This document shows, one piece after another, positions 1,736 to 48,835 of a DNA stretch of 63,452 nt. The stretch's first letter is position 1. Each line of letters starts with the position of its first letter. Made by a program: the position numbers and the translations under genes. The stretch spans positions 1-63,452 of the forward strand of contig JACQYL010000117.1 of the NCBI GenBank assembly GCA_016208165.1, read 5' to 3'. The notes under the pieces are model-generated. The model saw only the letters and a program-made list of their open reading frames with translations. It made no database searches and was not told the DNA's origin. The DNA is from Deltaproteobacteria bacterium. GTDB taxonomy: Bacteria; Desulfobacterota; Desulfarculia; JACQYL01.

Positions 1736-1751
1736 TTCCCACTCCGCATGG

Positions 1752-2696: not shown

Positions 2697-2711
2697 CTTC
2701 GACTCCTCTGT

Positions 2712-8089: not shown

Positions 8090-8150
8090 ACATCGGTAGA
8101 ACGAAAAGAAAACTTAAGGCAAAAATAGAATAGACCTATTTTTTTTTCGA
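8090..8150 (-). promoter_or_regulatory. Sigma-28-like flagellin promoter with A/T-rich upstream element
   Basis: On the minus strand TTAAGTTT (8117-8110) is followed after 12 bases by ACCGATGT (8097-8090), compared with the sigma-28 consensus TAAAGTTT-N11-GCCGATAA: 7/8 and 5/8 matches with the CCGAT core kept. Directly upstream, 8121-8149 is almost pure A/T with long A and T tracts, like an UP element. Transcription would start near 8083. Confidence 0.55.
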
Positions 8151-8977: not shown

Positions 8978-11900
8978 TCACGGTTGAGATTCCCGCTTGC
9001 CGGCTTGTTTCACCCGCAGGCAAACCTCGAGATTCTGCATAGCTTCAGTGTGGCGGGGATCCAGCACGAGACAGCGCTCAAAGTGATCCCGCGCCCGTTC
9101 GAAGTCCCGCTGTCCCATATACAGGACGCCTAAGTTGTTGAGAGGGTCGGCGGACCCTCCTCCTTCTTTAAGCTCGCGCACGAAAAAACGTTCAGCCAGA
9201 TCGAATCGATGGGCCAGGTAGTAGTTTTCGCCGATTCGGTTAAATATGTGGGGTTCGTCCGGATGGATCTCCGATAACCGAACCAGGGTCTCCGCCGCCT
9301 CTTCATATTGCCCCTTGCCCTCGAGAACCTGCGTCAGGGCCAGAAGCGGTTCGGAAACGTTCGGAAGGAGTTCCACAGCGCGCCGGGCCTCTTTTTCGGC
9401 CCGATCCATCTCCCCTCCCGCAGCAAGAGCCAGGCCCCACAGCGCTCTCGAGATGCCCGATAGCTCCCACCCAACTCGCTGAAGACGGTCGAAGTAAAGC
9501 GACGCTTCCCGGGCCTGACCGAGCTTAATCGTCCATTCTCCGACTTTTTCTACAAAACCATGCTCCGTCGGTTTGGCCAACCGTAACCACCGGAGTTCCC
9601 ATCGGGCCCCGTCCAAATCATCCTTTTCAACCTTGCTGGAGACGTTCTCCAGGCCGCGCTGAGGCATATCTTCCACCGCTCGGCAGATGTTCTCCACCTT
9701 GTCCATGGCTTCCGGTTCGCGGTTCATTTCAAGCAGAATGTTGGCGATGTTCCCCACGACTTGGGTGTCGTTGAGAGTGACGCTGTAAAAAGGACGAATT
9801 TCTCCCAGCCGGAATTTCAGGTACAGGTCATACGCCTTCTCAAGATGGGAAAGAGCCGCATCGTAGTTTCCGGCCTGGAAACGGCAGTAGGCCAGATCCA
9901 CCTGGAGTTCAGGGTGTTCAGGACAGACCTCCAGTCCTTCCTCCAGTACGGGTAATGCCTTTTGCCAATCCCCTTTGACGATATGAAGAAACCCCAAATG
10001 GGGGTACACATCCGCGTAGAACTGGTTGCGGAGGTCTACTCCCCTCTGTTTTGACAGTTGCAGAACTTGATATCCTTCCCGCAGAGCGTCGTCCAAACGC
10101 CCGACGGATCGGTAGGAACTGATCAGGTAATAGTGGGCGTCCAGGTCGTCGGGATTCCGCTGAATCCGTTTCTCCAACAGGGACGCCGTCCGATCGAACT
10201 TTTGCTGTTTCTTTTCCGGAGATATGTCATACCCGTAATGGTGAATCCGGACTTTAGACGCGCCCCCGGCGCCGTAATACCAGAGCTCGTTGTGTACGAT
10301 GCCGCGGTAGTGGAATCCCATGGTGTTGCGGATCAGCCGAATCGAGTTCTGCTCCGCCACCCGTTTCTTACAGTCCAGGTAGTTCAGGACCCTTAAAGTC
10401 ACCACCTGCCTGGAGAGATCTCCCGCTTCCTTGCGCAACTGATCCGCGTCTTCCGGTTCGAGCGACTCATCTCCGTCCATGATCAATATCCACTCTCCTC
10501 GGGCGTAACTCAGCGTAATGTTCCGCATGCCGGAGAAATCGTCAAACCAGGGATGGTGATACACTCGAGCGCCGTAACTCTGGGCGATTTCCACGGTTCG
10601 ATCTTCCGACCCGGTATCCACCACGACGATTTCGTCCACGGCGCCCACAACACTGGCCAAGCATTCCTCGAGATGAGTCTCTTCGTTTTTTACCATCATA
10701 CATAACGAAATCGTGGGGTAGCGTTTCACGCCCCGCTGGGCGTCGAAATAAGCGCGGGCATACTCCGGCTGTTCCGGCGCCGTTCGCATGGCTTTTCCCA
10801 GCCGGTGAAGAGCATCCAGCCTCCGTCCGACCGCCCAGTACAAGCTGCCCAGATTGAACGCGCCCAGAGGGAATTCGGGATGCATCTTTACCAACGTTAA
10901 AAGGTCTTTTTCCGCCTCCCTGAGGTTTCCCGCTTCCCGATGCACCAAGGCCCTGGTCAGGAGCGCATTGGAGGATTCAGGGGCGAGGACCACAGCCGCC
11001 TTTGCATGTTCGAGGGCCTCATTGAATTTCTTCTTCGATTTCAGAAGCTCCGCCAACTGGAGGCGCGCATCCAGTCGGTTCGGCTCCAGCTTGAGCGCCT
11101 TGGAGAAATACTCCAGGGATCGTTCGTTATCGCCCCGCTTCCTTGCAATCACGGCCAGCCCTTCAAATGCGGGAGCCAACAACCCCGCCCGATCGGGGTC
11201 GATGACTTCGCCCTTTTCCACAATCTCCAATACCGACACGAGGCAAGGTTCGGCTGCATCGAACTGGCCGGCGCCCAAGTGTTTAGCCCCCACTTCCAGC
11301 CGTTGCCGGGCCTTGAACAGCGGAACTCCCTGGAGATGGAACTTCACCGGACCCTCCAGGACCTTATCTTCCGTTTCTTCTTTCCGGCGCAAAGCCGCCA
11401 GATTGTTTCGAGCCGGGTCGAAACCAGGATTAAGTCGTAGGGCTGTTTCCAACAAGGACTCGGCCTTGCCGCGTTTCCCGCACTCCAACAGCACCGCCGC
11501 CAATAAGTTCAGAAAGTACGGAGCTCTTTTGGAATCCTCGATCAAATCCTTGATCTCATCTTCCAGGTTTTCCACTCGTCCGGAGCGAATGAGGGCCTCA
11601 GCGTACATGTACACCGCATCCGGGTGGTGATCCCCCATGTTGATGATATAAGGAAACGATTCCGGATGTTCCACATAGGTCTTCCTGCCCTTCAAATAGA
11701 TCGGGTAATACTCCAGGAGATTTTCCCAATCTTTTTTTTCATAGTAATAGCCCAGAAGAATGAACGCGGCGTCCATATTGTTCGGATCCACGTTCAGCAT
11801 TTTGCGGGTCTCTTCAAAGGCGGTTTCCAGATCGTCCAGGTTAAACGCATTCGCCGCAATCAGGTAATGAACGTCCTGATAGATAAGCTGCTTCGGATCT

Positions 11901-12577
11901 TCTCCCATGACCTGATGCGCCTTGAGGGCGGACTCGAGGGACTTGCGGGAATCCTTCCGGCTCGCATGGATCTTGGCGAGCTGATAGTGCGCAAACGCAA
12001 CGTTGTCTCCCTGCTCGATCATTTTTTCGAGCAGCCGCTCGCTCCGTTGGCGCTTCAGCTCCATTTTTTCTTCGTCCAGACCATACCCGTAGTGCAGAAT
12101 GAGAAAAGGAGCCGTACCGATCCGTTCACCCTTGGCGTCGAACTGGTTATGAACGATTCCCCGGTAGCTGAATCCCATATGGTTTCTGAACAGCCGGATC
12201 TGATTGAACGTGCTGCACGGAACGTTGGTTCTACGTACGTTTTCCAATTGAAAACGATAAATGTTGCACAGCGGTTTTTCCAGGAATGCTTTGAGGCTGA
12301 GATCCGCTCTCTGCCGGCGGAACTCATCGTCCGCGTCCAGAATGAGAATGAAATCCCCCGTTACGTAAGACAAGGTAATGTTGCGCATGCCGGAAAAATC
12401 ATCGAACCATTCGTGGTAGTAGATCCGATCCGTGTATTGGCGAGCGATCTCGACCGTCCGGTCCGTGGAGCCGGTATCCACGACCACGATTTCATCTACC
12501 TCGTCCTTTATGCTCTCCAGAGCACGAGGCAGCATCTCTTCTTCATTCTTCACCATCATGCAAGCCGAAATTTTCAT
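8978..12577 (-). CDS. Double GT2 glycosyltransferase with TPR arrays
   Basis: A 1199-residue cytoplasmic protein with the plan GT2-TPR-GT2-TPR. The first GT2 domain (about 1-150) starts ISACMMVKNEEEMLPRALES and has VVVDTGSTDRT and the nucleotide-sugar/metal site ILDADDE. The second, after about residue 610, repeats it (LCMMVKNEETHLEECLASV; VVVDTGSEDRT; LIMDGDES). Both share HxWFDDFSGMRNITLSY, so the halves arose by duplication. Each is followed by tetratricopeptide repeats; the second array runs to the C-terminus. Such SPINDLY-like or GT2-TPR proteins often glycosylate proteins, and the flagellin gene is next door, so flagellin is the likely acceptor. That is inference; LPS or capsule transfer is an alternative. 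GAGAG precedes the ATG. Confidence 0.9.
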   Translation of the reverse strand: MKISACMMVKNEEEMLPRALESIKDEVDEIVVVDTGSTDRTVEIARQYTDRIYYHEWFDDFSGMRNITLSYVTGDFILILDADDEFRRQRADLSLKAFLEKPLCNIYRFQLENVRRTNVPCSTFNQIRLFRNHMGFSYRGIVHNQFDAKGERIGTAPFLILHYGYGLDEEKMELKRQRSERLLEKMIEQGDNVAFAHYQLAKIHASRKDSRKSLESALKAHQVMGEDPKQLIYQDVHYLIAANAFNLDDLETAFEETRKMLNVDPNNMDAAFILLGYYYEKKDWENLLEYYPIYLKGRKTYVEHPESFPYIINMGDHHPDAVYMYAEALIRSGRVENLEDEIKDLIEDSKRAPYFLNLLAAVLLECGKRGKAESLLETALRLNPGFDPARNNLAALRRKEETEDKVLEGPVKFHLQGVPLFKARQRLEVGAKHLGAGQFDAAEPCLVSVLEIVEKGEVIDPDRAGLLAPAFEGLAVIARKRGDNERSLEYFSKALKLEPNRLDARLQLAELLKSKKKFNEALEHAKAAVVLAPESSNALLTRALVHREAGNLREAEKDLLTLVKMHPEFPLGAFNLGSLYWAVGRRLDALHRLGKAMRTAPEQPEYARAYFDAQRGVKRYPTISLCMMVKNEETHLEECLASVVGAVDEIVVVDTGSEDRTVEIAQSYGARVYHHPWFDDFSGMRNITLSYARGEWILIMDGDESLEPEDADQLRKEAGDLSRQVVTLRVLNYLDCKKRVAEQNSIRLIRNTMGFHYRGIVHNELWYYGAGGASKVRIHHYGYDISPEKKQQKFDRTASLLEKRIQRNPDDLDAHYYLISSYRSVGRLDDALREGYQVLQLSKQRGVDLRNQFYADVYPHLGFLHIVKGDWQKALPVLEEGLEVCPEHPELQVDLAYCRFQAGNYDAALSHLEKAYDLYLKFRLGEIRPFYSVTLNDTQVVGNIANILLEMNREPEAMDKVENICRAVEDMPQRGLENVSSKVEKDDLDGARWELRWLRLAKPTEHGFVEKVGEWTIKLGQAREASLYFDRLQRVGWELSGISRALWGLALAAGGEMDRAEKEARRAVELLPNVSEPLLALTQVLEGKGQYEEAAETLVRLSEIHPDEPHIFNRIGENYYLAHRFDLAERFFVRELKEGGGSADPLNNLGVLYMGQRDFERARDHFERCLVLDPRHTEAMQNLEVCLRVKQAGKRESQP

Positions 12578-12644
12578 CGTTCTCTCGCAGGCATTTACTG
12601 TCGTTCAGTTCTTGTTTGTTGGCTTCCAATCTACGATTGTCCGG

Positions 12645-14258
12645 TCATCCGGGCGATTCGTCACGAGATCCCGCCCAAGCCTCCGATTCGATAGCGGTCC
12701 CTTGCCAAGCGGCGGACCAGTTCTTGGGCGGATCATCCAGACGGAAATGGCTTCCCAGACTGGCGGAACGCTTCAACCCGAAAGTGGCCACCCGCTCTAT
12801 GGTGCGGGCCCTTTGGGTGAGAAAATAATACGTTTCCGCATCCACCTTTTCTAGTTGGAACTCGGTTTCCAATTCATCCAGCAATTCGGCGATGCGTTCA
12901 AGGGTTCGGGCCATTTCACGCGGCTCCCGAACCACGCCGATCGCCGCGGCGCAATCGTCGAGCTCGAAGCTAAACCATTCCAGTCTGGTTTTTCCCCCCT
13001 GTCGGGCCTGTATCTTGCCGGACCGGACGGGAGACGATGGCAGCGTTCCTTTGAGGGTTATCGCGCGGCGCGCGGCTTCGACTCCGGCGATGGCTCCGAA
13101 TACCTGGGTGGCCGCCATCATGTTTCCTCCCAGCCGGTCCGCCCCGTGTATGCCCCCGGCCGCTTCACCGGCCGCGAAAAGGCCGGGCAAAGACGTTTCC
13201 GCCCGTTCGTCGATACGAACGCCGCCGTTAAAAGCGTGGGCGAAATGCTCTATTCCGCATCGATATCCTTCCAGGCTCGTTTCCAGGCCGCCTCGATCAA
13301 GCCCGCCGCCTTCCAGCAGTTCCAGAGCCAGAGCCACGTCGATCATTCCCGACACGTCTCTGCAGCTAAAGGGGATGTGGGAGGGTCTCAGACGGATTGC
13401 TTCATCTAGAAGATCGTCCGTCAACCCACATTTGTCCCACACATTGTCGCGTGTCTTGTTTCGGACGGGAATCAAACGATCCAATCGGTAGAGAGGGAAA
13501 AAGGAACCTCGATGCGGCCAAACAGTTCCCAGAACGAACTGGATAAACTCCATATGCACCACTTCGACTCCGGCGTCGTAGGCCAGAGCGTATGCACTTC
13601 CCACCAAGGATGGATGGGCCATAGTCATCCTGAAGGCGCTCGCCCCGCCGCCGCAGGCGAGCACCGTGGAACCCGCCCGAATGCGCCACGGTGAGACCGA
13701 CGCCCTCAACCCTCGAGCTCCGACACACATCCCCTCGGACACTTCGAGTCCCACGGCCTGAAAATCGTCCAATGTCCGGATGGGCCGTCGGCGGATCTGC
13801 TCCAGCATGCATTTGCGGTACTGGTCGGAACTCACCAGCACGAACGCCCGTGCGTAGTTTCCAAAGCACGCTCTCACCCGGACAAAGCCGCCATCGGATT
13901 CTCTGCGAAACCGAACTCCCCATTTCATCAAGTCACGAAGACGCTCGGGGGCGTACGAGGCCAGAATTTCCACCAGAGCCGGATTCGCTTCGCCCAATCC
14001 GGCCTCGAAGCTTTCCCCGTAGTGATCCTCCACCGTGTCGCCGGGCGCCCCGCTATCCCAGGCGGCTTGGATCCCCCAGGAGGACGAGGTCTTTCCGAAT
14101 GTGGAGCCGTAGCGCAGAAACGGTCCTTTGCACGCCAGGATCACCTCCGCTCCCGCGTCGGCGGCCGCGAGGGTCGCTCTGATGCCGGCGGCTCCGGCGC
14201 CGATAACCAGAACATCCGATTCCATGCGTTGGTCGATACTTCTGCGGCGCTCATTCAC
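12645..14258 (-). CDS. FAD-dependent oxidoreductase, L-aspartate oxidase / fumarate reductase flavoprotein type
   Basis: A 537-residue flavoprotein. An N-terminal dinucleotide-binding motif (VLVIGAGAAGIRATLAAADA), a capping domain and the second FAD-contact block GIHGADRLGGNMMAATQVFG place it in the succinate dehydrogenase / aspartate oxidase family. The C-terminal helical part keeps the family signature SLGSHFRLDDPP. The start used is GTG at 14258, with GGAG seven bases before it; an ATG at 14225 is the alternative. A quinolinate role as NadB would be unusual here, because no nadA or nadC is near. It lies in a minus-strand run between a DegT aminotransferase and the GT2-TPR gene, so it may oxidise a sugar or amino-acid intermediate of the island. 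Substrate unknown. Confidence 0.8.
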   Translation of the reverse strand: MNERRRSIDQRMESDVLVIGAGAAGIRATLAAADAGAEVILACKGPFLRYGSTFGKTSSSWGIQAAWDSGAPGDTVEDHYGESFEAGLGEANPALVEILASYAPERLRDLMKWGVRFRRESDGGFVRVRACFGNYARAFVLVSSDQYRKCMLEQIRRRPIRTLDDFQAVGLEVSEGMCVGARGLRASVSPWRIRAGSTVLACGGGASAFRMTMAHPSLVGSAYALAYDAGVEVVHMEFIQFVLGTVWPHRGSFFPLYRLDRLIPVRNKTRDNVWDKCGLTDDLLDEAIRLRPSHIPFSCRDVSGMIDVALALELLEGGGLDRGGLETSLEGYRCGIEHFAHAFNGGVRIDERAETSLPGLFAAGEAAGGIHGADRLGGNMMAATQVFGAIAGVEAARRAITLKGTLPSSPVRSGKIQARQGGKTRLEWFSFELDDCAAAIGVVREPREMARTLERIAELLDELETEFQLEKVDAETYYFLTQRARTIERVATFGLKRSASLGSHFRLDDPPKNWSAAWQGTAIESEAWAGSRDESPG

Positions 14259-14353
14259 GGCGGCACTCCGGCTTCAAGCAGCAATAGCGATATCGCGGCA
14301 ATTTCGATGAAGAACATGGAAGACTGAATCGGTATCCCGGTCAAGCGCGCGCA

Positions 14354-15613
14354 TCAGTACTCCGGAGCCGCCGACGCTTGAGAGATCTTTATCCCTTCTA
14401 TCAATGTGCGTATCACTCTCTCCTGATCCTCCACACTGATTCCGACATACAACGGCAGTGTAATGGAGAGCCGGTCGGCCATATACGATACCGCGAAATC
14501 CTCGTCCCTAAGACCGTATTTCCGCTGGTAATAGCCCAGGGTATGCACGGCGTGGGTTCCCTGACGCACGGAAATACCCTGTCTTTCCATGTACGCCATA
14601 ATGCGGTTTCGCTCCCGGTTCCAAGCGCCGATCCGGTCCCATGCGGGAATCCCGCCGGCTCTCATGTCTGTAGAGTCGGGCAGGTAAAGACACACGTACG
14701 ACTGGTAGGCATGACGGTAACCTGGGGGGGCCCATGGAGGCAGGATTTCGGGAATCCCCTCCAGAAGGTTGTCGTATCGGGCGGCTGCCGCCCTTCTTGC
14801 TTCCAGTATTTGAGGGAGTTTAGACATCTGGGCCACGCCCAGGGCGCCCTGAAGATCCGTCATCCGATAGTTGAAGCCTAAAACGTCGTAAGCGGGAAGA
14901 AGGGATCCACCTTGGCTGAGATGTCTCTCGAGATCCGTCTTGGCCGCCCCGTGATCCCTCAGCCTCCGGATCTTGTCTGCAAGTTCGTCATCGTCCGTGA
15001 CCACCATGCCCCCCTCGCCGGTAGTTATCGACTTCCGGGGATGAAAGCTGAAACAGCCCAGCAACGCCTCGGCGCCGGCGTGATGTTCGTTTCGATAAGC
15101 GCCCAGACCGCAAGCCGCATCCTCGACTACCTTCATCCCATATCGGGACGCAATTTCGTGTATGGTTTCCATATCCGCGCACAGGCCGAAAAGAGACACC
15201 GGCAAGATGCATTTGGGGAGAGCGCCGCCCACCTTGGCCTTTTCTGACGCGAACCTGCCGATCTCTTCCGGGTTCATGTTGAAGGTCCGGGGACCCACGT
15301 CGACGAATACGGGTTTGGCGCCGGTATACTCCACCGCGTTGGCCGTCGCCAGAAACGTAAAGGACGGAACCAGCACCTCGTCTCCCGGTCCGATTCCCGC
15401 CGCCAGCAGAGCCAAATGAAGAGCGGTCGTACAGGATGTAACGGCAATGGCATTGCGAACGCCGGCAAATGTCTTGAACCTGTTCTCGAACTCCGCCACG
15501 TTAGGTCCTTGAACCAGCCACCCGCTCCGCAATACATTCAGGACGGCCTTCTCTTCCTGTTCGTCCATCCAAGGCCGGGTAATAGGAATGGGTGTCGCCA
15601 CGGGTCTATCCAC
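14354..15613 (-). CDS. DegT/DnrJ/EryC1/StrS PLP-dependent sugar aminotransferase
   Basis: A 419-residue fold-type I aminotransferase, likely turning a nucleotide-linked keto-sugar into an amino-sugar in the cytoplasm. Seen: the start ITRPWMDEQEEKAVLNVLRS, the cofactor loop SCTTALHLALLAAG, EDAACGLGAY (Asp for the pyridine nitrogen) and the PLP lysine in SFHPRKSITTGEGG (about Lys194). Length is slightly above the usual 370-390. It starts with GTG at 15613, inside the last codons of the radical SAM gene (8-base overlap), so the two are probably co-translated. It could be the WbpE step missing beside wlbA and wbpD, or it could make a different amino sugar; sequence alone does not decide. Confidence 0.93.
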   Translation of the reverse strand: MDRPVATPIPITRPWMDEQEEKAVLNVLRSGWLVQGPNVAEFENRFKTFAGVRNAIAVTSCTTALHLALLAAGIGPGDEVLVPSFTFLATANAVEYTGAKPVFVDVGPRTFNMNPEEIGRFASEKAKVGGALPKCILPVSLFGLCADMETIHEIASRYGMKVVEDAACGLGAYRNEHHAGAEALLGCFSFHPRKSITTGEGGMVVTDDDELADKIRRLRDHGAAKTDLERHLSQGGSLLPAYDVLGFNYRMTDLQGALGVAQMSKLPQILEARRAAAARYDNLLEGIPEILPPWAPPGYRHAYQSYVCLYLPDSTDMRAGGIPAWDRIGAWNRERNRIMAYMERQGISVRQGTHAVHTLGYYQRKYGLRDEDFAVSYMADRLSITLPLYVGISVEDQERVIRTLIEGIKISQASAAPEY

Positions 15614-16574
15614 GTTCAGTCATCCTTTCAAAAAGCTCCCCGACTTTCCTTTCCGGTTCGGAGAACGTCCTCCAATGGTCGCAGCCGGAACACGGCTGGT
15701 CCAGCCCATCTCCGTTATCGATATGGGCCTTTCGAACCCGCCGGTAGGCGTCTCCGCGCCAGATCCGCTCCATGGACTCGACGTTCACATCGCCCAGCGG
15801 ACGAATCCGATCCCAGTCATGGTTGCATAGCGCAACCCGGCCGTTCCAATAGATCACCATATCTCTGAACGGCTTAAAGCAGGGGGTTCTGGTTTCGCAG
15901 GACTCGCTCCCTGACTCCTTTTTCAATGAGCCGAACCGACCGTCCCGTGAGTGCTGTTCGTATACTCGGACCCGATCCACGCGGTTACTCCAGTACGCAA
16001 CGAAATCTTCCACTCCGGACGCTGTATTTTCCGTTCGCACCACCGACACCTGGATCTCGGGTTTATCGATCTTCCTTCTCTTTTTCAGATCGCAAAAAAC
16101 CTCGATGTTTCTTAGTACGACTTCCAACTCGGCGCCTCTTCGTACCGTTCGATAGATGTCGGGATCGATGGAGTCCAGGCTGAACGATACAAAATCCAAC
16201 TCGAGATCCAAAAGGGCGCGAGCCGCTTTCTCGCTCATAAGCGTGGCGTTGGTGGCGAACTGAATGGGTCCGATTCCCCGCTCTTTGGCGTATCCGAGCA
16301 TCTCGATCCACCTTGGATGAAGCAACGTCTCCCCTCTAAAGAAGGGCACCAGCGCCGTGCGACCGAAGGAAACCATTTCGTCCACGATCTTCCTGAACAG
16401 TGCAACTTCCATGTAACCTTTGGAGCCGGTCATGTGTTCGCGGGGACACATGACACACTCGAGATTACAGTGGTTGGTCAATTCCACGGTGATGCGATCC
16501 GGAAAATGCAGAGCTTGGATCTCGAGGTTAAGACGGCTGTTCGTTTCAATTTCCCTGACGTTGTTCCGTTTCAA
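15606..16574 (-). CDS. Radical SAM/SPASM-type protein
   Basis: About 322 residues. The radical SAM cluster motif is NHCNLECVMC (CxxxCxxC), followed by an SFSLDSIDP block. The C-terminal part has a cysteine series (PCFKPF, ALCNHDW, CSGCDHW) matching an auxiliary-cluster SPASM or twitch domain. Such enzymes modify peptides or sugars with S-adenosylmethionine and reductant. The usual frame opens at 16589, but GGAG followed by six bases and TTG at 16574 marks a better start. The gene overlaps the end of the asparagine-synthase-like gene by 29 bases and the aminotransferase by 8, so the three form a coupled unit. The modified substrate is unknown. Confidence 0.88.
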   Translation of the reverse strand: MKRNNVREIETNSRLNLEIQALHFPDRITVELTNHCNLECVMCPREHMTGSKGYMEVALFRKIVDEMVSFGRTALVPFFRGETLLHPRWIEMLGYAKERGIGPIQFATNATLMSEKAARALLDLELDFVSFSLDSIDPDIYRTVRRGAELEVVLRNIEVFCDLKKRRKIDKPEIQVSVVRTENTASGVEDFVAYWSNRVDRVRVYEQHSRDGRFGSLKKESGSESCETRTPCFKPFRDMVIYWNGRVALCNHDWDRIRPLGDVNVESMERIWRGDAYRRVRKAHIDNGDGLDQPCSGCDHWRTFSEPERKVGELFERMTERG

Positions 16575-18513
16575 TGTGTTCTCCGTCAATAAAGATCCGG
16601 TTCCACCATTCGAAGCTGAGCAGCGACCAGATCAGGAGCCGATGGTTGGCTTTGCCCCGCAGATGCTCATCGAGGGTCGTTTCGATGTATTCCTTGTTGA
16701 AATAACCCCTGTCCAGACTCCGATCAGAAAGGATAAGATTTCGTATGAACTGTACGAGTTGTTGCATGTACCAGGATTGGTCCGGAGCGCTGAATCCCTG
16801 TTTGCGGTTTTCTATGATCTCTTTGGGAAGAATCCCCTCCATGCCTTTCCGCAGCAAGTATTTCCCGGAAAGGTTGATGTCTGTTCTGGCGGACTCGATC
16901 CAAGAATCGTTCAAAAGATATTTGCAGGGGATTTTTGTCGTGAAATCCACCAACTCGTTGTCCAGGAACGGCACTCGTGATTCCAGGGAATGAGCCATGC
17001 TCAGTTTGTCTTCCACGACCAGAATTCCGTGCAAGAACGTTTTCGCGTCAAATCGAAGCGCCTTTTTAATATAATTGTCGTTCGATGAGCCATTGATGGC
17101 CCGCCGGAGCGTATCGAGGGAAGAATACCCGCCGATCTTGCGAAGGGCTTGGGCGGAAAAGAATTTCTGTTTGTCTCTGTCTTTAACAAGTCTCGACCAG
17201 TAGTCGTACGTTACCTGTTCGAACTCCTCAGGGGATGCGCATTCCCTGACCAATTTGTATCGCCAGGGATACCCCGCCAAGGTTTCGTCTCCACCCGCTC
17301 CAGCAAGCACCACTTTTACGAATTTGCCGGCCAATCGGGAAAGGAAGAAATGCGGATAGGACATGCCCACCCGCAGGTCTTCCATGTGCCAGATCACTTT
17401 CGGCAGAGCCCACTCCAAGTCGCCGGCGTGGATGACCATCTGATAGTGTTCCGTACCCAATTCCCTGGAGATCAGTTCGGCCTTGTCTCGTTCATCGAAG
17501 AAGTTTTCGATGCTCACCGCAGTAGCTACGTCAAAACCTCCGGTAAACGTCATCATACGTGGAATGTTTTTTGACGCGAAAGCTACGATACTCCCTGAAT
17601 CCAGACCTCCACTCAGATAGCTCCCGACCGGCACGTCGGCCACCAACTGGCGGCGCATGACCTCGGCAAAGCATTCCCTGAACAGCCCGACATAGGCTTT
17701 TTCATCCCCTTCGTTCCGCTCTTCGAAACAGAAATCCCAATACCGGTTTTTGACGATTTGTCCCCTCTGGACAACCAGATAGCACCCCGGTTCCAAGATC
17801 TTGATTCCTTTGAACAAGGTGGTTTCGCCGAAGGTGTTCTGAAAGGTGAAATAATCGTTGAGAGCCTCATAGTCCGTCTGTGCCTCCACTCCCTCCACTT
17901 GCAGCAACGCTTTGATTTCGGAGGCAAAACTGAGAATCCCGTTGACCACCGTATAATACAGGGGTTTGATGCCGTAGCGATCCCGGGCCAGAAGGAGCCG
18001 GTTCTTTCGACCGTCCCAGAGTGCAAAAGCGAACATGCCGTTCAGGCGCCCGATCGCTTCTTCTCCGTACTCTTCGTACAAATGAATAATGACTTCCGTG
18101 TCCGAATTGGAAAAGAAACGATGTCCTTTGCCCAGCAATTCCCTTCGCAGATCTTTGAAGTTGTAGATCTCCCCGTTGTAGGTGACCCAGATGCCGTTGG
18201 CGCGGCTGGACATGGGCTGGTGGCCTCCGGCAGTAAGATCGATGATCGATAACCTGCGGTGCCCCAATGCGAGATTGAAATCACCATTGCCTTCAAAGGC
18301 CGAGCGCCAGCTCTCGCGGGAGGAAAGGTCGGGCATGTCCGGACCCTTTTCAACCCAGTAGCCCTCTTCTCTGTAGGGTTCGTTCTCCACATGAAAGAAG
18401 ACGTACCCTTCGTCGTCGGGTCCCCGGTGCTCCATAACGTCGCACATTTTCTTCAGGCAATAGGAGGGGACGGGCTCACTCTGCAAGTGGTACATGCCGG
18501 CAATCGCGCACAT
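16546..18513 (-). CDS. Asparagine-synthase-like glutamine amidotransferase
   Basis: A 655-residue two-domain enzyme of the AsnB family. The Ntn glutaminase domain begins MCAIAGMY with the nucleophile at Cys2, and has MEHRGPDDEG, LGHRRLSIIDL and NGEIYN. The synthetase domain has the PP-loop SYLSGGLDSGSIVAF (SGGxDS), a GGDE motif and the EDKLSMAHSLESRVPFLDN block. AsnB-family proteins in glycan loci amidate uronic acids instead of aspartate (as proposed for WbpS of Pseudomonas aeruginosa), which would fit a locus making a diacetamido-uronic acid. That role is inference; plain asparagine synthesis is the alternative. Residues 50-80 hold an extra loop (EEGYWVEKGPDMPDLSSRE). TTGGAG precedes the ATG. 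Confidence 0.92.
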   Translation of the reverse strand: MCAIAGMYHLQSEPVPSYCLKKMCDVMEHRGPDDEGYVFFHVENEPYREEGYWVEKGPDMPDLSSRESWRSAFEGNGDFNLALGHRRLSIIDLTAGGHQPMSSRANGIWVTYNGEIYNFKDLRRELLGKGHRFFSNSDTEVIIHLYEEYGEEAIGRLNGMFAFALWDGRKNRLLLARDRYGIKPLYYTVVNGILSFASEIKALLQVEGVEAQTDYEALNDYFTFQNTFGETTLFKGIKILEPGCYLVVQRGQIVKNRYWDFCFEERNEGDEKAYVGLFRECFAEVMRRQLVADVPVGSYLSGGLDSGSIVAFASKNIPRMMTFTGGFDVATAVSIENFFDERDKAELISRELGTEHYQMVIHAGDLEWALPKVIWHMEDLRVGMSYPHFFLSRLAGKFVKVVLAGAGGDETLAGYPWRYKLVRECASPEEFEQVTYDYWSRLVKDRDKQKFFSAQALRKIGGYSSLDTLRRAINGSSNDNYIKKALRFDAKTFLHGILVVEDKLSMAHSLESRVPFLDNELVDFTTKIPCKYLLNDSWIESARTDINLSGKYLLRKGMEGILPKEIIENRKQGFSAPDQSWYMQQLVQFIRNLILSDRSLDRGYFNKEYIETTLDEHLRGKANHRLLIWSLLSFEWWNRIFIDGEHIETEQRQGN

Positions 18514-18635
18514 CGGCCATCTCCAAGTAATGTTTGCCCATTATACGTATTGAAAAAAGGCATATGACGGTGAATCACCTTGTGTACTCTTCATTCACCG
18601 ATATAAATCGAAGTCCGACTTTCAACAGCATCTGT

Positions 18636-19652
18636 TCATGCGTCCTTATCATTCCTGCCTCCTTCAAATTCCGGCTTTTCTACAACGAGTCTATGTAATC
18701 CTGTCGTTGCATATATCATTTTATAATTATCGAACTCGGGAACAATCCTCTCTCCGTTCAGCATTCTAACGGTTAGATCAAAATAATCCACGCCGGCGGC
18801 ATGGACGCATAGTGCCGCCGAATTGGAAAATCTTGGATTAATTTCAGTAACTTTGAAAGATCCGTTTCCCAAATCATATACCTGTATGTTGGCTGGCCCG
18901 AAGAAACCCATATAATCCAATATATTCTCCACAAACCCCATTATTCTTGGGTGACACGGTATGGTTTGTCCTCTGGTTATGCCACCACCTTGCCCGGCTT
19001 TTAGGCGATATAAGGTAACGATCCGCTTGAGTTCAGTATCTTGGACAAAGAAGTCGACATTAATTTCTTTTCCAAATCCAAGATATTCCTGAAGCAAATA
19101 CGAATCGTGCTCGGCGTTCAGTTTTCTTCCGTAGTATTCGAGGTCATAGCTGTTTTCTATAAGTGCAAACAGGTATCTTGAAGAATTCTTCATGGATACA
19201 TATCGTGGTTTCAGATATTGCGGATAATGGATCGAGCCTATGTTCTCGAGGCCGTCGCGTAATAGAATCGTAGACGGAGTGGGTATGCCAAGGCTTTCAA
19301 AGAATTCGAATGTCTTCAGTTTGTCGACGGAGATGTCAATCGCCTTCTTGCCGGCAACAAGAATGTCTGTGCCTGAACCAAGGAACCTTTCTCTTTCTCT
19401 GGAAAAGAAAATCAGATCTAGATCCGCCATTGGAACAATCAAATCGATCGATTCCATTCGGCAGATTGCATTTACTTCATCTGCGAATTCGGCACTATCC
19501 GATCTCGACACCTGATAACACTTGTCAGCACAAAGAATCCCCGGAGCCAACGGATCGATTTCGGTAGTGATCACTTTTTCTACATTAGACGTCTTTCTCC
19601 ATATGTCCAATATGATTGATCGGTTTCCAGCAGTTGGCAATAGAAGTCTCAT
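18636..19652 (-). CDS. ATP-grasp ligase (carbamoyl-phosphate synthase / PylC-like)
   Basis: A 338-residue ATP-grasp protein. An N-terminal Rossmann-like preATP-grasp domain starts RLLLPTAGNRSIILDI. The ATP-grasp core follows, with YPQYLKPRYVSM (phosphate-lid lysine), LLQEYLGFGKEINVDFF and the Mg-binding FKVTEINPRFSNSA. Members couple a carboxylate to an amine or thiol, with acyl-phosphate formation. The acid and the amine here are unknown; a uronic acid or an amino acid is plausible given the neighbours (amidotransferase, enolase-type enzyme). AGGAAGG lies before the ATG. There are 122 bases to asnB-like downstream and 227 bases to the enolase-type gene upstream. The flanking gaps are A/T-rich relative to neighbours, as is the gene itself, a hint of acquisition by transfer. 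Confidence 0.88.
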   Translation of the reverse strand: MRLLLPTAGNRSIILDIWRKTSNVEKVITTEIDPLAPGILCADKCYQVSRSDSAEFADEVNAICRMESIDLIVPMADLDLIFFSRERERFLGSGTDILVAGKKAIDISVDKLKTFEFFESLGIPTPSTILLRDGLENIGSIHYPQYLKPRYVSMKNSSRYLFALIENSYDLEYYGRKLNAEHDSYLLQEYLGFGKEINVDFFVQDTELKRIVTLYRLKAGQGGGITRGQTIPCHPRIMGFVENILDYMGFFGPANIQVYDLGNGSFKVTEINPRFSNSAALCVHAAGVDYFDLTVRMLNGERIVPEFDNYKMIYATTGLHRLVVEKPEFEGGRNDKDA

Positions 19653-19879
19653 ATCAAGTGGCCTTCCTATTTCGAAATGATAGTCCTATACTCTTATATA
19701 TACCTTTCCTGGTTCTCTTATAGTAACTCAAGAAAATCAGGTCACTTAGTAGATCTGAATGCCATTATGACATTGGGAGAATAACGTCTTTCGAACACAG
19801 CTCCGCCGGCCATTTCTGTATGGGGCTAAAATAGCTTGTATTTGGCAAACGCATGTGGTTTTGAGTCCCGGGTATCGTG

Positions 19880-21001
19880 TCATTCGGGCCTTTGCCAACT
19901 CCGTACCAGCCGCCGCTGAAAATCATCGGCTAAAGTGATCTCTCTGTCCCATTGAGAGTGGATGATACGTCCCTTGCTGATGCGCATCGGATAGTCTTTC
20001 ACTATGCTTGTCGACTGCTTTGCGAATCCGTTGGATTCGGCCGGGGAATCCAGACCGAGCATACGATAAAGGCCGATTTCGGCCAATGCCCCTAGCTCGC
20101 CTTGAACACCGTTTCCCAACGTGACCCGAAGATTGGATTTCTGCAAACGACGAGCCATGGACCATGTCCTCATGGCGGAAGCATGTTTCATCAGTTTTAA
20201 CTTGACGGAAACGTCTCCGTCGAGTTGTTCGACGGTCTTAAGGTCATCATCCAGCCAGACAGACTCGTCCAGGCAAATGCGGACGTCCGGGCGCAGCTTC
20301 AGGAGACGCACAATGCTTTCCCAATCCTGTGAGGGAAAAGGTTGCTCCAAATACTCCACATTGGAATGGTTCGAGGCATCCCAGAGTCGCACCGCTCCTT
20401 CTCTGTCCAATCCCTGGTTCGCATCGATCCTCAGATGTTGTGCAGCATCCAAATGGTCCAACACCGTTTCGATTCTCTGAATATCAAAGTTAACATCTCT
20501 TCCCACCTTAATCTTCAGCGTGTCGAAACCCGACTCTGCCAAAGACGTCACTTCTTCGCCAAGGGCCTCCCGCGTTTCCGCAAGGAGCATTCCGATGGTC
20601 CGCACGGCAAAAGCATGGTCAAGATAGGCATACAGGGCCTTCTGCTCGAGCGCCCCCATAAGAGCAGCCATACTGAATGGGGTAATCTCGGAGATACGGT
20701 AAAGCTTCAGAAAAGCCTCGTCTGCTCTCAGGCCGATAATCTCTTCCGCAGCCTTCAAACTTCTCTCCCACACGTCTTCCGGACCTTCCCAGCCATATCC
20801 CGGCAAGGGAGTACTCTCTCCCCACAGCATGGATTCTTCCGTCTCTAGCATACACAGAATGGTATTAAAGACGTACAGGGTACTGAAACTGAGAGAATAA
20901 GGCCTCTTCAGGGGTATTCGAACATAGTAAATACTCGCTCGCCTGATCCTGTCCAACCCAACCCAGGAAGCGCATTTCTCCAGATTAATCGGATCGCTCA
21001 T
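19880..21001 (-). CDS. Enolase-superfamily enzyme (MLE subgroup; dipeptide epimerase or OSB-synthase-like)
   Basis: A 373-residue member of the muconate-lactonizing-enzyme subgroup. The catalytic KxK is in TLKIKVG, the metal ligands are the Asp of RIDANQG, the Glu of EYLEQPF and the Asp of CLDESVW, and the opposite lysine is in SVKLKLMKHA. The N-terminal capping domain has LPGYGWEGPEDVW. Known relatives epimerise dipeptides, racemise N-acyl amino acids or make o-succinylbenzoate; there are no menaquinone genes nearby, so OSB synthesis is less likely. Its ATG overlaps the last base of the flavodoxin gene stop (TAATG), so the two proteins are translationally coupled. That pairing is uncommon. 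The product may feed the ATP-grasp ligase downstream. Confidence 0.85.
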   Translation of the reverse strand: MSDPINLEKCASWVGLDRIRRASIYYVRIPLKRPYSLSFSTLYVFNTILCMLETEESMLWGESTPLPGYGWEGPEDVWERSLKAAEEIIGLRADEAFLKLYRISEITPFSMAALMGALEQKALYAYLDHAFAVRTIGMLLAETREALGEEVTSLAESGFDTLKIKVGRDVNFDIQRIETVLDHLDAAQHLRIDANQGLDREGAVRLWDASNHSNVEYLEQPFPSQDWESIVRLLKLRPDVRICLDESVWLDDDLKTVEQLDGDVSVKLKLMKHASAMRTWSMARRLQKSNLRVTLGNGVQGELGALAEIGLYRMLGLDSPAESNGFAKQSTSIVKDYPMRISKGRIIHSQWDREITLADDFQRRLVRSWQRPE

Positions 21002-22272
21002 TAAAGGTAACCTACCGCTTCGTAGCGTAAATTGCTTAAGCAGTCTAAACGCATGGGCCGATACCGAATCACTTGATCGACAAAGTGATCTATGTATCCG
21101 GCCAGCTCGTCGTTGTCATCGCACCGGTGATTCGGAGGAGTGCCCCTGAAACCGGGACCAATCATGATTGCATTGTGGCGCAAGGCAAAGTTCGTTCCTC
21201 TGAGAAAAAAGAGGGATCCTGAAAAGACCGAAGAGAATTGGATCAAGCCAATAGGTAAGTTGGAGAGTTCAAAGTTGTTTCTACGCATGGAGCGTGTTCT
21301 TTCCACGAAAATCTGGTATTTTGCCCCATCGATCCGCCGACCCGGCGCATCCACTATTAACATGCCCTCGCTTCTCAGCATCCGCTCTCGGATTTCGACC
21401 ATATCGTCGGTCTGTACACACACAGACTCATTGGGCGTGGGATTCGGGCACGCAATGCAACCCAGACATCTGCCCAGCTTGAAATCCTCTAAAAACACCG
21501 CATCTATCTCCGCGTTTACGGAAACCAGATGCTCTATTCGCTCCTGAATTTCCACCGTCGGCCTCTTGGGGTAAAGGACCATGACTCTGGGTTTATACGA
21601 AGGCAACTCGTGAATGGGGAGGATTTGTGACAGGACTGCGACCCTACTGCCGGTTCCATAAGAAGTTTGAAGCCCGAAATTATCGTCCAGAATGGCGCCC
21701 GGGTTTCCCGCCACGGCTGTTCCACCGTACTGACTTGTGGGCGGGCCGTTTCCAACCAGGTTTGCTCCCAAGGACAGGCAAACCTGAAGTCCGAGAACGT
21801 TTGTGGTTTCCTGTCCGCCGTTTCGCTTTGCCCCGACGGACACGAACCCGGCCACCTTACCTTTGAGCGGGAGGTAGCCCAACCCGGCAATCAGATCAAA
21901 GGCGGATTCAACCAAAGAAGATCTGTCTCCGAAGTACACTGGTGTACCGATGATCAATCCCTGACAGGCTCTGATGGAGCTTTCCAGGCTCGGACAGGCG
22001 TCAGGAGATATCGGCCGATCCGGTTCTCGTGGAAACAAGTCTACCAATCGAAACAAGTCAATATCACAGCCCTGTTCCATCGCGCCGAAAGAAGCGGCGA
22101 TCACGATGCCTTCCGTGTTGCTGATGCTGTTCTTAGAAGACAGCGAGTAAATATGTTCGTACACTCCCGCAAAACTTTTGAGCTGCGGCAGTTTTCTGTT
22201 GAAATGCTCGACCGGGTACCTGCTGCGGATACTCCCGGATAAAGCCGTGACCTTTGTTGTGCGTTTCCGCAT
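21001..22272 (-). CDS. Tandem flavodoxin / NADPH-dependent FMN reductase fusion
   Basis: A 423-residue protein with two flavodoxin-like halves. The first (about 1-215) opens with the FMN P-loop-like VTALSGSIRSRY and has LIIGTPVYFGDRSSLVESAF and GFVSVGAKRNGGQETT, typical of NADPH-dependent FMN reductases. The second (about 228-423) begins RVMVLYPKRP, a degenerate phosphate loop, but keeps the cysteine knuckle GRCLGCIACPNP and a DDMVEIRERML helix as in multimeric flavodoxins. It probably reduces a bound flavin or substrate in the cytoplasm. Fusion of two such domains is unusual. AAGGAA precedes the ATG; it is coupled to the enolase-type gene by a one-base overlap. Confidence 0.75.
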   Translation of the reverse strand: MRKRTTKVTALSGSIRSRYPVEHFNRKLPQLKSFAGVYEHIYSLSSKNSISNTEGIVIAASFGAMEQGCDIDLFRLVDLFPREPDRPISPDACPSLESSIRACQGLIIGTPVYFGDRSSLVESAFDLIAGLGYLPLKGKVAGFVSVGAKRNGGQETTNVLGLQVCLSLGANLVGNGPPTSQYGGTAVAGNPGAILDDNFGLQTSYGTGSRVAVLSQILPIHELPSYKPRVMVLYPKRPTVEIQERIEHLVSVNAEIDAVFLEDFKLGRCLGCIACPNPTPNESVCVQTDDMVEIRERMLRSEGMLIVDAPGRRIDGAKYQIFVERTRSMRRNNFELSNLPIGLIQFSSVFSGSLFFLRGTNFALRHNAIMIGPGFRGTPPNHRCDDNDELAGYIDHFVDQVIRYRPMRLDCLSNLRYEAVGYL

Positions 22273-22520
22273 TGCGATCTTCCTTCATTGAAGCATCGGT
22301 GGTAAGGTAGCCCTATTAGAAGCCAGCCTTGCTCGAATGATCACGCTCATACCCACTGTTGATGGCATCACTACTTCTTCACTGACTGCTATTCTACTTA
22401 GCACTCGATCTTTCCATTGTCGGAATTAGGGTCCGTAAAATAGAAACCATAGAATAGAATAAATTATGTTATTCGTACACATTAAGCTATGATACAAAAG
22501 TCAGATAGCAGGAACTTCGG

Positions 22521-24416
22521 TCAATTATATATTCTTCTGTCGTACTTGGGCACATCCATACCAAGCTCTTTGAAAACATCATGTTCTATCATGTATCGAT
22601 AGAAGTCGGATTTAGATCCACTTTGTAGTAGATGTTCCTGCTCATACCAGCTCAAATTGATAAACTGTTTCACCGGCTTGGAGGCGGACAGGTTTGCATA
22701 AACCTCGATGTATTTCTCGATCCAAAGCGACATATCTGCCCGTTCTGCAACCCACTTGCGGCTTTCTCGGGCGATCTTTTCTCTACCCCCGTTTCTTTTC
22801 ATCCGAATAGCCGCTTCCACTTGGCTCTTGAAGTTCTGCTTCGTAATCCGGAGCACGGGTGGATAGCCGCGCAGGCGATCCATCAGGTCGCTCTGGTAAA
22901 CCAGAATCGGTATCTCCCAGCTCATCATTTCCAGGCCGAACAAGCCGAAGCCGCCCACGGCAACCTGTTCGAGGGCATAGTCGGCGTGGGCGTAAATCCG
23001 CTTGGCTTCTTGGGGCGGCAAACCACTCACAGTCAGTATTTCAATCGGCATTCCCTCTGCCTTGCATTCTTCGATAAGCCGATTGATTACATAGGATCCT
23101 TTCTTCCAGTTCGTCGTGGCCGCGTGGAGGAAGTACGTTTTATCAGGGTCTTTCTTCACGGGAAATTGCCCCGCTATCCTTATTTTCTCAGGCGGATCCC
23201 ACTCCGCCATGTCGATCAGTCCGCCTAGAAAGAGGCCTCGGGGGATACACGTCAGTCCGAACATCACGTCCGCGTACCGGTTAATCAGCTTGTGCAGTCG
23301 ATAGTGCTCCAATGTGAGGTAGTACGGCTTTGGCGGCTTGTGCCCCAGAAATCGGGCCTGGTGATACAGAATCCATTCCGGTCCACGCTGCTCACTTCCC
23401 CAGAACGAGAAAAGAATCTTCTTTCCTTTCGATTTCAGTATCTCCAGGTCTCTGTAATCCGGATAAAGGGATCGACCGAAATGGAAATGAAAAATGTCGT
23501 ACTTTTCTATCGCCTCTCTGGCAAAACTGTCTATTACACGAAATTGCTCTTTCTCCGGTAGTTCGTTCACCTTCAAATTCACGGAACATTCGTACTTCAG
23601 CCACGTATCGTGATAGTTGACATCCGTGGCGTCCAGTCCGTATCGGCGAAGAAAACGGCAGATGCGCGCCATATTGCCCGCAATTTCAAAAGGCGCATGC
23701 AATATCTTTTTGTCCGATAGAATATCGAGACGCTCGGTCAGAATCTTATCTTCGGTTTTTCTGGAGACATCCTCGTCGACGGTGACAGACCCGCAATGGT
23801 CCCGTACGAAACGTGCGCCGGTATCTTTGGAGGTAGCCGACCACTCTTGGTGAGGCCCTCCCGGTTTTTCGACAGGAGGCGCTGCCGGCTCTGGTCTCCT
23901 CTCGCCGTCTTCTTCATCCAAGTTTAAAACCGGCTTTTCGCTATCTTGACGCATCGCCACGCTCTCTTTTTCAACACATGCGTCCTGGATCAACCCTAAC
24001 CGAGACTCCGAATCCGTATGAGCCGGCTCGGAACTTCCAAACACGTTCGGCGAAGCGCCGGAAGGAGTATGCTCACAGGGCTTACCCTGTAGGGATGGCC
24101 TGAGTACGTCAGAAAAGGCATCATAATTTTCTCTCAGAATTCGATCCGCCTCCTCATGGCGGCCGGAGGCGCGATACACATCCGCAAGATTCGCAATGGC
24201 GCCCTGGTGATCCCTGGTCCGGGCAACGGCCTGCAGAAAGAATTCTTCCGCTCTTTTGAGGTCTCCTTGCCGGAAGAGCACGACTCCGTAATTGTTCAAT
24301 GCCCTGACATTGTCCGGGTCGAGCTGAATCAGGAGTTTGAAAATCTCTCCGGCTTCATCCACATGGCCTCTGTTGAAAAGCTCTTCAGCCCGATCAATCT
24401 GATGGTCGTACGTCAT
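22521..24416 (-). CDS. TPR-glycosyltransferase (GT-B type)
   Basis: A 631-residue protein. Residues 1-110 hold TPR units (AEELFNRGHVDEAGEIF; NNYGVVLFRQGDLKRAEEFF). About 110-235 is low-complexity, charged and probably a flexible linker. The C-terminal 390 residues look like a GT-B glycosyltransferase: IFHFHFGRSLYPDYRDLEIL, a hinge, then LHAATTNWKKGSYVINRLIEE and the donor-site-like AVGGFGLFGLEMMSWEIPIL (glycine-rich loop plus Glu). It likely transfers a sugar to a protein or lipid acceptor in the cytoplasm. No good ribosome binding site precedes the ATG. It lies downstream of the MerR gene, with a 248-base A/T-rich gap before the flavodoxin gene. Confidence 0.8.
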   Translation of the reverse strand: MTYDHQIDRAEELFNRGHVDEAGEIFKLLIQLDPDNVRALNNYGVVLFRQGDLKRAEEFFLQAVARTRDHQGAIANLADVYRASGRHEEADRILRENYDAFSDVLRPSLQGKPCEHTPSGASPNVFGSSEPAHTDSESRLGLIQDACVEKESVAMRQDSEKPVLNLDEEDGERRPEPAAPPVEKPGGPHQEWSATSKDTGARFVRDHCGSVTVDEDVSRKTEDKILTERLDILSDKKILHAPFEIAGNMARICRFLRRYGLDATDVNYHDTWLKYECSVNLKVNELPEKEQFRVIDSFAREAIEKYDIFHFHFGRSLYPDYRDLEILKSKGKKILFSFWGSEQRGPEWILYHQARFLGHKPPKPYYLTLEHYRLHKLINRYADVMFGLTCIPRGLFLGGLIDMAEWDPPEKIRIAGQFPVKKDPDKTYFLHAATTNWKKGSYVINRLIEECKAEGMPIEILTVSGLPPQEAKRIYAHADYALEQVAVGGFGLFGLEMMSWEIPILVYQSDLMDRLRGYPPVLRITKQNFKSQVEAAIRMKRNGGREKIARESRKWVAERADMSLWIEKYIEVYANLSASKPVKQFINLSWYEQEHLLQSGSKSDFYRYMIEHDVFKELGMDVPKYDRRIYN

Positions 24417-24519: not shown

Positions 24520-24969
24520 TTATCCATCGGCCTTCGGCATCGGGGTCGAGGCTTCCGAGTCGGCCCCGGCATCCGTCTCTCGTTCCGCGTCGGCCGTCGC
24601 GGGAACCCGATCGATATGTTCGCTCGGTCTTCCGTTCAACTTCCTGAAGCTCTCGTAGATCTCGGTCCTTATGATCTCCGTCAAACGATCGACAAGATCC
24701 TCGAGGACATGCGAGACAGAGGAACCCACCCCGGCCCCCTCGGAGGATAGCGATCTCTTGATGCGATCCAAGGAAATTCCCTGATCCTTCAATTCCTTGA
24801 TTCTTCCAATGACCGAGATTTCTTCGCTGCCGTACCGCCGTTGCCCTCCCTTGGTTCGCATGGGTGTCAAAATTCCTTCGAATTCCTTCTCCCAAAATCG
24901 TAGCGTGTGCGGAGGAGTGTCCGTCATCTCGCTGACCTGCTTTATGGTGAACAAATCATTTCTCCGCAT
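24520..24969 (-). CDS. MerR-family transcriptional regulator
   Basis: About 149 residues. The winged helix-turn-helix of the MerR family is at the N-terminus: LFTIKQVSEMTDTPPHTLRF followed by WEKEFEGILTPMRTKGGQRRYG and a helix (VIGRIKELKDQGISLDRIKR). The C-terminal half is acidic and low-complexity, without the cysteines of metal sensors. The ATG at 24969 puts the HTH where the family has it; in-frame starts at 24999 (ATG) and 25023 (TTG) also exist, and none has a strong ribosome binding site. It is the first gene of the island on the minus strand, about 100 bases before the TPR-glycosyltransferase, and may control it. The effector is unknown. Confidence 0.85.
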   Translation of the reverse strand: MRRNDLFTIKQVSEMTDTPPHTLRFWEKEFEGILTPMRTKGGQRRYGSEEISVIGRIKELKDQGISLDRIKRSLSSEGAGVGSSVSHVLEDLVDRLTEIIRTEIYESFRKLNGRPSEHIDRVPATADAERETDAGADSEASTPMPKADG

Positions 24970-25530
24970 AGCATTAGGTGGATCGGCATAATTGAACATT
25001 AGCTTTAGGTTTAACTTTAGCAACAGTCATGCCAGGTGGCGCTCGATCAAAATAGAGGTATGTTCAATGTGTTACCCGTTATAGCCCTTCTGAAACGAAG
25101 GAACAAAATGCCCAAATCTCCACTTTAAGCTAGGCAAAAAGGGCCTCTCGCCCTCCATTTTTCGAGTCCATCCCGGAGAGGCGGCCTTCCAAAAGGGATG
25201 GACGCATCCAGGAGCCTGCACGATTTTTCCGGAGCCCGAATCCTCCGCTCTGTTCCACGGGCGGGTTTCCGGGAAGAACCGCCGGAGACGACGTTTGACC
25301 CTCCGAACCGCCCTCAAAGAGGGGATTTGCGCAAGCCGGGCCGTTCCAGGGAACGCAGTAATACCAGGAATCGATCGAGGCATGCCTTTTGCACCGCCAA
25401 GCATGATATTCTCTTCGAATACAGGACATGAAAGATGTCCACGCAAACAACGGCCATGCGTGCCCGCGGACGGAAGTTGAGGACAACTGGACAATTCTGT
25501 AATTTCCTACTCGGATATGCAGGAGATATT
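24970..25530. other. Divergent intergenic region with 9-bp inverted repeat
   Basis: This gap separates the minus-strand MerR gene from the plus-strand radical SAM gene. GTCCATCCC (25166-25174) is inverted as GGGATGGAC (25195-25203), with a 20-base spacer, a possible operator or hairpin. Frames crossing 25072-25494 show no recognisable domain and are rich in Pro, Arg and Ser, as chance frames are. No clear sigma-54 or sigma-28 match was found. Confidence 0.4.
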
Positions 25531-40074: not shown

Positions 40075-40101
40075 TTATCGGCAGCAGATGTCAGAACTTT
40101 A
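40075..40101 (-). promoter_or_regulatory. Near-perfect sigma-28 promoter of flgM
   Basis: On the minus strand TAAAGTTC (40101-40094), 11 bases, then GCCGATAA (40082-40075). The consensus is TAAAGTTT-N11-GCCGATAA, so 15 of 16 positions match, at the right spacing. It directs transcription of flgM and genes downstream, giving autoregulation of the anti-sigma factor. Confidence 0.85.
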
Positions 40102-48797: not shown

Positions 48798-48835
48798 ACT
48801 TCCTACCCCCCTGCTCGCCGTTGCACTGTTTCGAA

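Follow-up and report, generated by a model that had tools for sequence, protein, structure and literature searches.

Introduction

On flagella, variation among nonulosonic and 4-amino sugars usually comes from transferases of the acetyl-CoA type. In Shewanella oneidensis, the sfmABCDE genes for flagellin glycans include an ATP-grasp gene, and the excerpted report describes no clear PseH orthologue (PMC3765264). An ATP-grasp gene is also needed for the peptidylamido-sugar on the flagellin of Clostridium difficile type B (PMC5207246), and the flagella of C. botulinum carry Leg5GluNMe7Ac, a glutamyl-type legionaminic acid (PMC13317340). The present analysis concerns a 63,452-nucleotide stretch of a deltaproteobacterial genome (assembly GCA_016208165.1, contig JACQYL010000117.1, positions 1 to 63,452), referred to as the window, in which a likely flagellin-glycan island occupies positions 8978–24416 beside a flagellin gene. 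Genes for a flavoprotein, an enolase-superfamily enzyme and an ATP-grasp ligase form a cassette in this island that recurs in other genomes, and the cassette is the transferable finding. We consider it rather probable that the island makes a 4-amino sugar whose N-acyl group comes from a tailored acid activated by a ligase, in place of acetyl-CoA.

The points of likeness to S. oneidensis are a nonulosonic acid (NulO)-type flagellin glycan without a clear PseH, the ATP-grasp carboxylate-amine ligase SfmE, and a moiety that adds 236–264 Da; the five-gene sfm operon differs in having a NeuB-type SfmA, a thiamine pyrophosphate (TPP) enzyme and a methyltransferase, and the excerpted text places no enolase-superfamily gene or flavoprotein in it (PMC3765264). 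The C. difficile type B system likewise has genes for an ATP-grasp ligase and a DegT-type (FdtB-like) aminotransferase, whereas its ATP-grasp family is PF13535, the partner enzyme is ornithine cyclodeaminase-like, and the cassette does not appear in the excerpted description (PMC5207246). The flagellin-directed FlmG of Caulobacter shares with a window protein (22521–24416) an N-terminal tetratricopeptide repeat (TPR) region and a C-terminal transferase region in about 600 residues; according to the excerpted report FlmG uses pseudaminic acid (PMC7591256), whereas the C-domain of the window protein is weakly supported as a GT-B domain. The viosamine island of Pseudomonas syringae also builds a modified 4-amino sugar for flagellin, but with viosamine genes and with no ATP-grasp cassette named in the excerpted report (PMC3927599). 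With the canonical pseudaminic acid (Pse) pathway, PseB-C-H-G-I-F, the island has a PseC-like DegT enzyme in common, and elsewhere the cassette lies in such operons; the window differs in having no PseB over cut-off, no PseI and no PseH. Among open-licence PMC papers, none was found that describes the cassette in connection with nonulosonic acid, flagellin glycosylation or O-antigen, and the excerpted texts of two island surveys (PMC4875605, PMC5109656) contain no mention of the terms sought.

Results

A flavoprotein, an enolase-superfamily enzyme and an ATP-grasp ligase form a recurring cassette

The flavoprotein gene (21001–22272, minus strand), an FMN_red family member, was the best marker for comparing loci. 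At an E value of 1e-20 or better, homologues occur in 3 of the 395 genomes from the window's phylum and in 7 of the 291 from the class of G333; the phylum of G670 has them in 2 genomes out of 345 and the class of G339 in 3 out of 257, tallies in which G333 and G339 are counted twice (G000 denotes the genome of the window and other G numbers the compared genomes; L numbers are compared loci and C numbers contigs). Scanning genome contigs for the flavoprotein gave six loci, three of them near full length (L003–L005); L006–L008 are short partial matches, among which L006 is a single-domain FMN_red protein without the cassette and L007 and L008 fall outside the set compared below.

Flavoprotein neighbourhoods were compared at 16 loci in 15 genomes, the window included. 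The enolase-type gene lies beside the flavoprotein gene at ten of them (G000, G333, G339, G503, G526:C39, G541, G671, G672, G1111 and G1125), directly adjacent in the near copies G671 and G672 and elsewhere; the G1111 flavoprotein gene has an in-frame stop. An eleventh locus, that of G670, is cut off by the contig end within the flavoprotein gene. All eleven carry an ATP-grasp gene, checked by Pfam in G000, G333, G339, G526:C39, G541, G670, G671 and G1111 and by blastp or alignment in G503, G672 and G1125. The enolase gene is absent from the other five (G526:C241, G595, G597, G599 and G826), with the G597 contig starting just before the flavoprotein gene and one side of that locus invisible. 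An AMP-binding (AMP-forming) ligase is nearby in four of the five (G526:C241, G597, G599, G826), and G595 has what appears by eye to be a glycyl-radical-like enzyme. Because a carboxylate-activating enzyme accompanies the flavoprotein at 15 of the 16 loci, we place the flavoprotein on the acid side of the acylation.

Flagellar genes neighbour the cassette at three of the eleven loci. These are the window, G670, where the cassette operon follows flgI, flgK, flgL and fliW, and G541, where the cassette is adjoined by flgL, fliW, flagellin and a Maf-type gene. The first-pass annotation had proposed a search for the same gene set beside flagellin in other genomes; among those compared, the cassette alone recurs, beside flagellin and other flagellar genes in G541 and beside flagellar genes in G670, and the whole island was found nowhere else.

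In the flavoprotein model (predicted local distance difference test, pLDDT, 83), the N-domain aligned with 2a5l over 168 residues (Z 20.1, root mean square deviation, rmsd, 2.2), which predicts a WrbA-like, flavodoxin-like FMN-binding fold for the first of its two domains. Thirteen of the 16 flavoproteins were aligned; 47 columns are invariant in all thirteen, as is a cysteine motif in the second half. The product of the enolase-type gene (19880–21001, minus strand; MR_MLE_C) was modelled with a mean pLDDT of 88 and aligned with 1nu5 over 350 residues (Z 37.6, rmsd 2.8). Alignment of eight of the ten known proteins, two of the eight being near copies, gave 36 columns invariant in all eight, including the KxK, D-E-D and K residues. 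By modelled fold and residues, the protein belongs to the muconate-lactonizing-enzyme (MLE) subgroup of the enolase superfamily. Its nearest solved relatives are N-succinyl-Arg/Lys racemase, dipeptide epimerases and muconate lactonizing enzymes; similarity alone would suggest a dipeptide epimerase or N-acylamino acid racemase activity.

The island lies upstream of flagellin and behind a sigma28-like site

The presumed acceptor is a flagellin of 935 residues (5087–7894) with Flagellin_N and Flagellin_C domains and a Ser+Thr content of 17.9%. It is encoded on the minus strand, as are the island genes, the MerR gene and the promoter-like sites before flagellin and the island. All eight gene types that the first-pass annotation had placed next to it were recovered by Pfam and NCBIfam at 8978–24416, upstream of flagellin. 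Nearest to flagellin is a glycosyltransferase gene (8978–12577) whose product has two GT2 domains plus TPRs (Pfam) and LDAD and MDGD motifs. It is followed by genes for an FAD enzyme from the family of fumarate reductase and aspartate oxidase (12645–14258; FAD_binding_2, SdhA/FrdA/NadB type), a PseC-like DegT aminotransferase (14354–15613; 320 bits against a PseC cut-off of 423.5, SFHPRK motif), a radical SAM + SPASM enzyme (15606–16589; Pfam/NCBIfam, CNLECVMC kept), an AsnB-type amidotransferase (16546–18513; 451 bits against a cut-off of 267, Cys2 and SGGLDS kept) and the ATP-grasp carboxylate-amine ligase-like enzyme with a PylC-like N-domain (18636–19652). The SFHPRK motif kept by the DegT enzyme is a lysine motif. 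Beyond the enolase-type and flavoprotein genes lies the gene for the FlmG-like layout (22521–24416). Two gene pairs in the island overlap, one by 44 and the other by 8 bases. A single base is common to the FMN_red and enolase genes, and the remaining intergenic gaps measure 67–248 bases, a spacing compatible with one transcript or a few.

The sigma28-like pattern TWAAG-N15-RCCGAT, based on the sigma28 consensus, has four exact matches in the window against 0.05 expected: one before flagellin (8092–8117), one before the MerR-type regulator gene that heads the island (24982–25007) and two near cheA. The longest frame of the regulator starts at 25023 and its probable start is 24969 (24520–24969), so that the island site ends about 12 bases before it, a tight spacing. 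An N14 variant occurs at 40077–40101, before two short open reading frames (ORFs) of flgM/flgN size. In G541, a one-mismatch site stands directly before a MerR-PseB gene; with two found against 0.64 expected in that stretch, this is weaker. A sigma54-like site also matches exactly before the island (25019–25034), one of two in the window against 0.12 expected, the other lying where a flagellar rod-type gene begins (48835–48850). Sigma54 control was dropped as main evidence, the two-mismatch pattern being no commoner than chance despite the two exact sites.

In the FlmG-like protein, Pfam places TPRs at residues 8–96; the best Pfam match of its C-terminal domain has an E value of 0.22, which is not significant, and there is a short GT4-like match at E 0.005. 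The label of glycosyltransferase, or putative GT-B, for this domain is weakly supported. The earlier description of two TPR-linked glycosyltransferases stands for the TPRs of both and for the GT2 domains of 8978–12577, and less well for this C-domain. By analogy with FlmG, the protein may bind and glycosylate flagellin. A third TPR-linked glycosyltransferase (27042–29621, minus strand; domain match), whose membership of the island is uncertain, was missing from the earlier gene list, as was the FMN_red gene. On the sigma28-like site, the two other cassette loci beside flagellar genes and the FlmG-type layout, the proposal of a flagellin-linked glycan island is supported.

Enzyme sets combining radical SAM/SPASM, ATP-grasp, AsnB, epimerase and flavoprotein members occur in natural-product clusters, and the island could accordingly encode a small-molecule or modified-peptide pathway unrelated to flagellin. 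The AsnB and radical SAM proteins do score on peptide-modifying families, below the cut-offs. We regard this as very unlikely: DegT, NeuB-family and glycosyltransferase genes accompany the cassette at other loci, and no precursor peptide was noticed, with no search aimed at one.

A 4-amino sugar is favoured over a nonulosonic acid

In a small tree, the window DegT enzyme pairs with a DegT of G333 (support 0.945), likewise from a cassette locus that has no NeuB. It falls outside the PseC clade (0.998), and its neighbour in the tree is another G000 DegT, encoded beside a WbpM-like dehydratase on a different contig. PseC-like and perosamine/ArnB-type enzymes are also better matches to the window enzyme than WbpE is. 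On this placement, an NDP-4-amino-4,6-dideoxy sugar used directly is favoured over a nonulosonic acid. Against direct use stand the NeuB and CMP-transferase-like genes on other contigs of G000 and a Maf gene in another flagellar cluster. The island itself has no MptE-like/Maf domain, the single G000 match being in a fli/flg/mot-like cluster on contig C54.

The first-pass annotation had suggested an amidated or aminoacylated diacetamido-uronic acid. A UDP-GlcNAc3NAcA-type uronic acid could be amidated by AsnB and given an amino acid by the ATP-grasp ligase, and the window does hold a WbpB homologue (1752–2696, minus strand) and a homologue of the 3mqg lipopolysaccharide (LPS) acetyltransferase (1154–1735, minus strand), which we take to be of the WlbB/WbpD type, while AsnB is in the island. 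The G503 region combines WbpB, a WbpD-DegT fusion, AsnB and the cassette. However, WbpE is not the first match of the window DegT enzyme, and the stretches read of the flagellar loci G541 and G670 have no WbpB or WbpD match; we judge this chemistry distinctly unlikely. The two homologues lie outside the island beside a Wzz-like gene, and nothing in the data ties them to flagellin; the amidated uronic acid is conjectural. The aminoacylated part is partly supported, a carboxylate-activating ligase being conserved with the cassette. As an observation in its own right, the WbpB–WlbB–Wzz-like group (1154–4283), near the contig end, suggests a UDP-GlcNAc3NAcA-type sugar.

Some cassettes elsewhere lie in nonulosonic acid loci of genomes without PseH over cut-off

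A whole-genome search of G000 with PF03102 (NeuB) gave two matches, both off the window's contig, one of them a clear NeuB on contig C48, in agreement with the earlier statement that the window has no NeuB-like synthase. In G000, PseB reached at best 165 bits against a cut-off of 407.75 (a 673-residue frame on contig C14) and PseH 20.7 bits against 93.1. A complete pseudaminic pathway at the island was rejected, with PseB, PseH and PseI missing from it. That the gene set follows no textbook pseudaminic or legionaminic acid pathway holds for the window; elsewhere, six of the eleven cassettes (G339, G541, G670, G671, G672, G1125) lie among NeuB-, PseC- and PseF-type genes. The four NeuB-family synthases scored (G339, G541, G670, G671) fell below both the NeuB and the PseI equivalog cut-offs.

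PseB passed its cut-off in four of nine genomes, in three of them (G339, G541, G670) inside the cassette locus and next to a PseC that also passed. PseH passed in none of the nine, its best scores in those three genomes being 19–24 bits against 93. Conversely, no flavoprotein or enolase match was found in the three PseH-bearing loci read, one of which (L088) has an ATP-grasp-like ORF by eye. This reciprocal pattern, three against three, is suggestive.

Other features of these loci were noted in passing. The C48 NeuB (L017 17314–19182) belongs to a 622-residue fusion with SAF and a xylose-isomerase-like TIM barrel; radical SAM-like and GT2-like ORFs lie near it. BNR-like proteins or domains occur in five NeuB-bearing cassette loci (L003 7063–8505, L004 7495–8937, L029 15713–17110, L015 11587–13719, L073 11490–12617). 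Nonulosonate loci also contain two fusions, cytidylyltransferase–ATP-grasp (L030 755–2590, G541) and cytidylyltransferase–class-III aminotransferase (L066 4176–6197, G670).

Points against a flagellin glycan with a ligase-installed acyl group

Several observations weigh against this reading. At eight of the eleven cassette loci no flagellar gene was matched in the stretch read, and the surroundings look surface-polysaccharide-like, mostly by eye; because of these loci the cassette itself is not flagellum-specific; the first-pass annotation had named regular occurrence in LPS or capsule loci as a sign against it, and for the cassette this is partly the case. An O-antigen or exopolysaccharide cluster could thus stand beside flagellin by chance, as the surface-polysaccharide-like surroundings in G333, G339, G503, G526, G1111 and G1125 (again mostly by eye) and the WbpB, WlbB and Wzz-like genes of the window would allow. 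We think this unlikely: in the island we saw neither flippase nor polymerase, the transferases there are linked to TPRs, the island stands behind a sigma28-like site, and two other cassette loci are flagellar. For the flagellin glycan, further adverse points are that no sigma28-like site precedes the G670 operon at the two spacings tried, that the FAD enzyme is unmatched in every relative locus read, that in its tree the window ATP-grasp forms a long branch and falls outside the nonulosonate-linked clade, that no dehydratase is linked to the island, and that the Maf on C54 could be the real flagellin transferase. As to PseH, G671 and G672 have PseH-like genes at 63–64 bits, and the control search found PseH over cut-off in just 3 of 395 genomes of the phylum; because it is so rare there, its absence is weak evidence, and its use as strong proof was rejected.

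Neighbouring genes

The flagellar genes fliW, flgL, flgK, flgI, flgH, flgA and flgG lie at 32–49 kb of the window. A 1425-residue FlgL-like protein (33121–37398) has Flagellin_N as its only matched domain, and two ORFs between flgI and flgH (41738–43654 and 43725–44741) match BiPBP_C and Ig-like domains weakly. A second radical SAM protein (25435–26871), divergent from the island, has weak matches in the G503 cassette region.

Discussion

In the pathway we propose, a 4,6-dehydratase encoded elsewhere would supply a nucleotide 4-keto-6-deoxy sugar, to which the DegT enzyme would add the C4 amine. The ATP-grasp ligase, not an acetyl-CoA transferase, would then join a carboxylic acid to this amine. 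That acid would be made or tailored by the flavoprotein, which would act ahead of activation, and by the enolase-superfamily enzyme, whose probable role is epimerisation or isomerisation at the carbon adjacent to the carboxylate. The AsnB, radical SAM and FAD enzymes may tailor the product further, which would suit an amidated aspartate- or glutamate-derived group, and the TPR-linked cytoplasmic transferases would attach the sugar to flagellin before export. The sequence data establish the gene identities, their intact motifs, the recurrence of the cassette and the sigma28-like sites; the substrate, the acyl group, the sequence of steps and the transfer to flagellin are what we infer. Fumarate reductase and aspartate oxidase, the relatives of the FAD enzyme, act on dicarboxylates or N-acyl amino acids, as do AsnB and the closest relatives of the enolase-type enzyme, and for this reason an aspartate- or glutamate-derived acyl group is the simplest guess, though a doubtful one.

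More broadly, it is possible, at somewhat less than even confidence, that the flavoprotein, the enolase-type enzyme and the ATP-grasp ligase constitute an undescribed mobile N-acylation module that takes the place of PseH-type acetylation in pathways to nonulosonic acids and 4-amino sugars. Flagellin and surface glycans would then carry a new class of acyl groups, derived from amino acids and installed by a ligase. If so, an ATP-dependent ligase cassette with its own acid-tailoring enzymes would help to explain flagellin glycan masses of unknown origin. The cassette would then be a sequence signature predicting unusual N-acyl groups and would provide new enzymes for sugar acylation.

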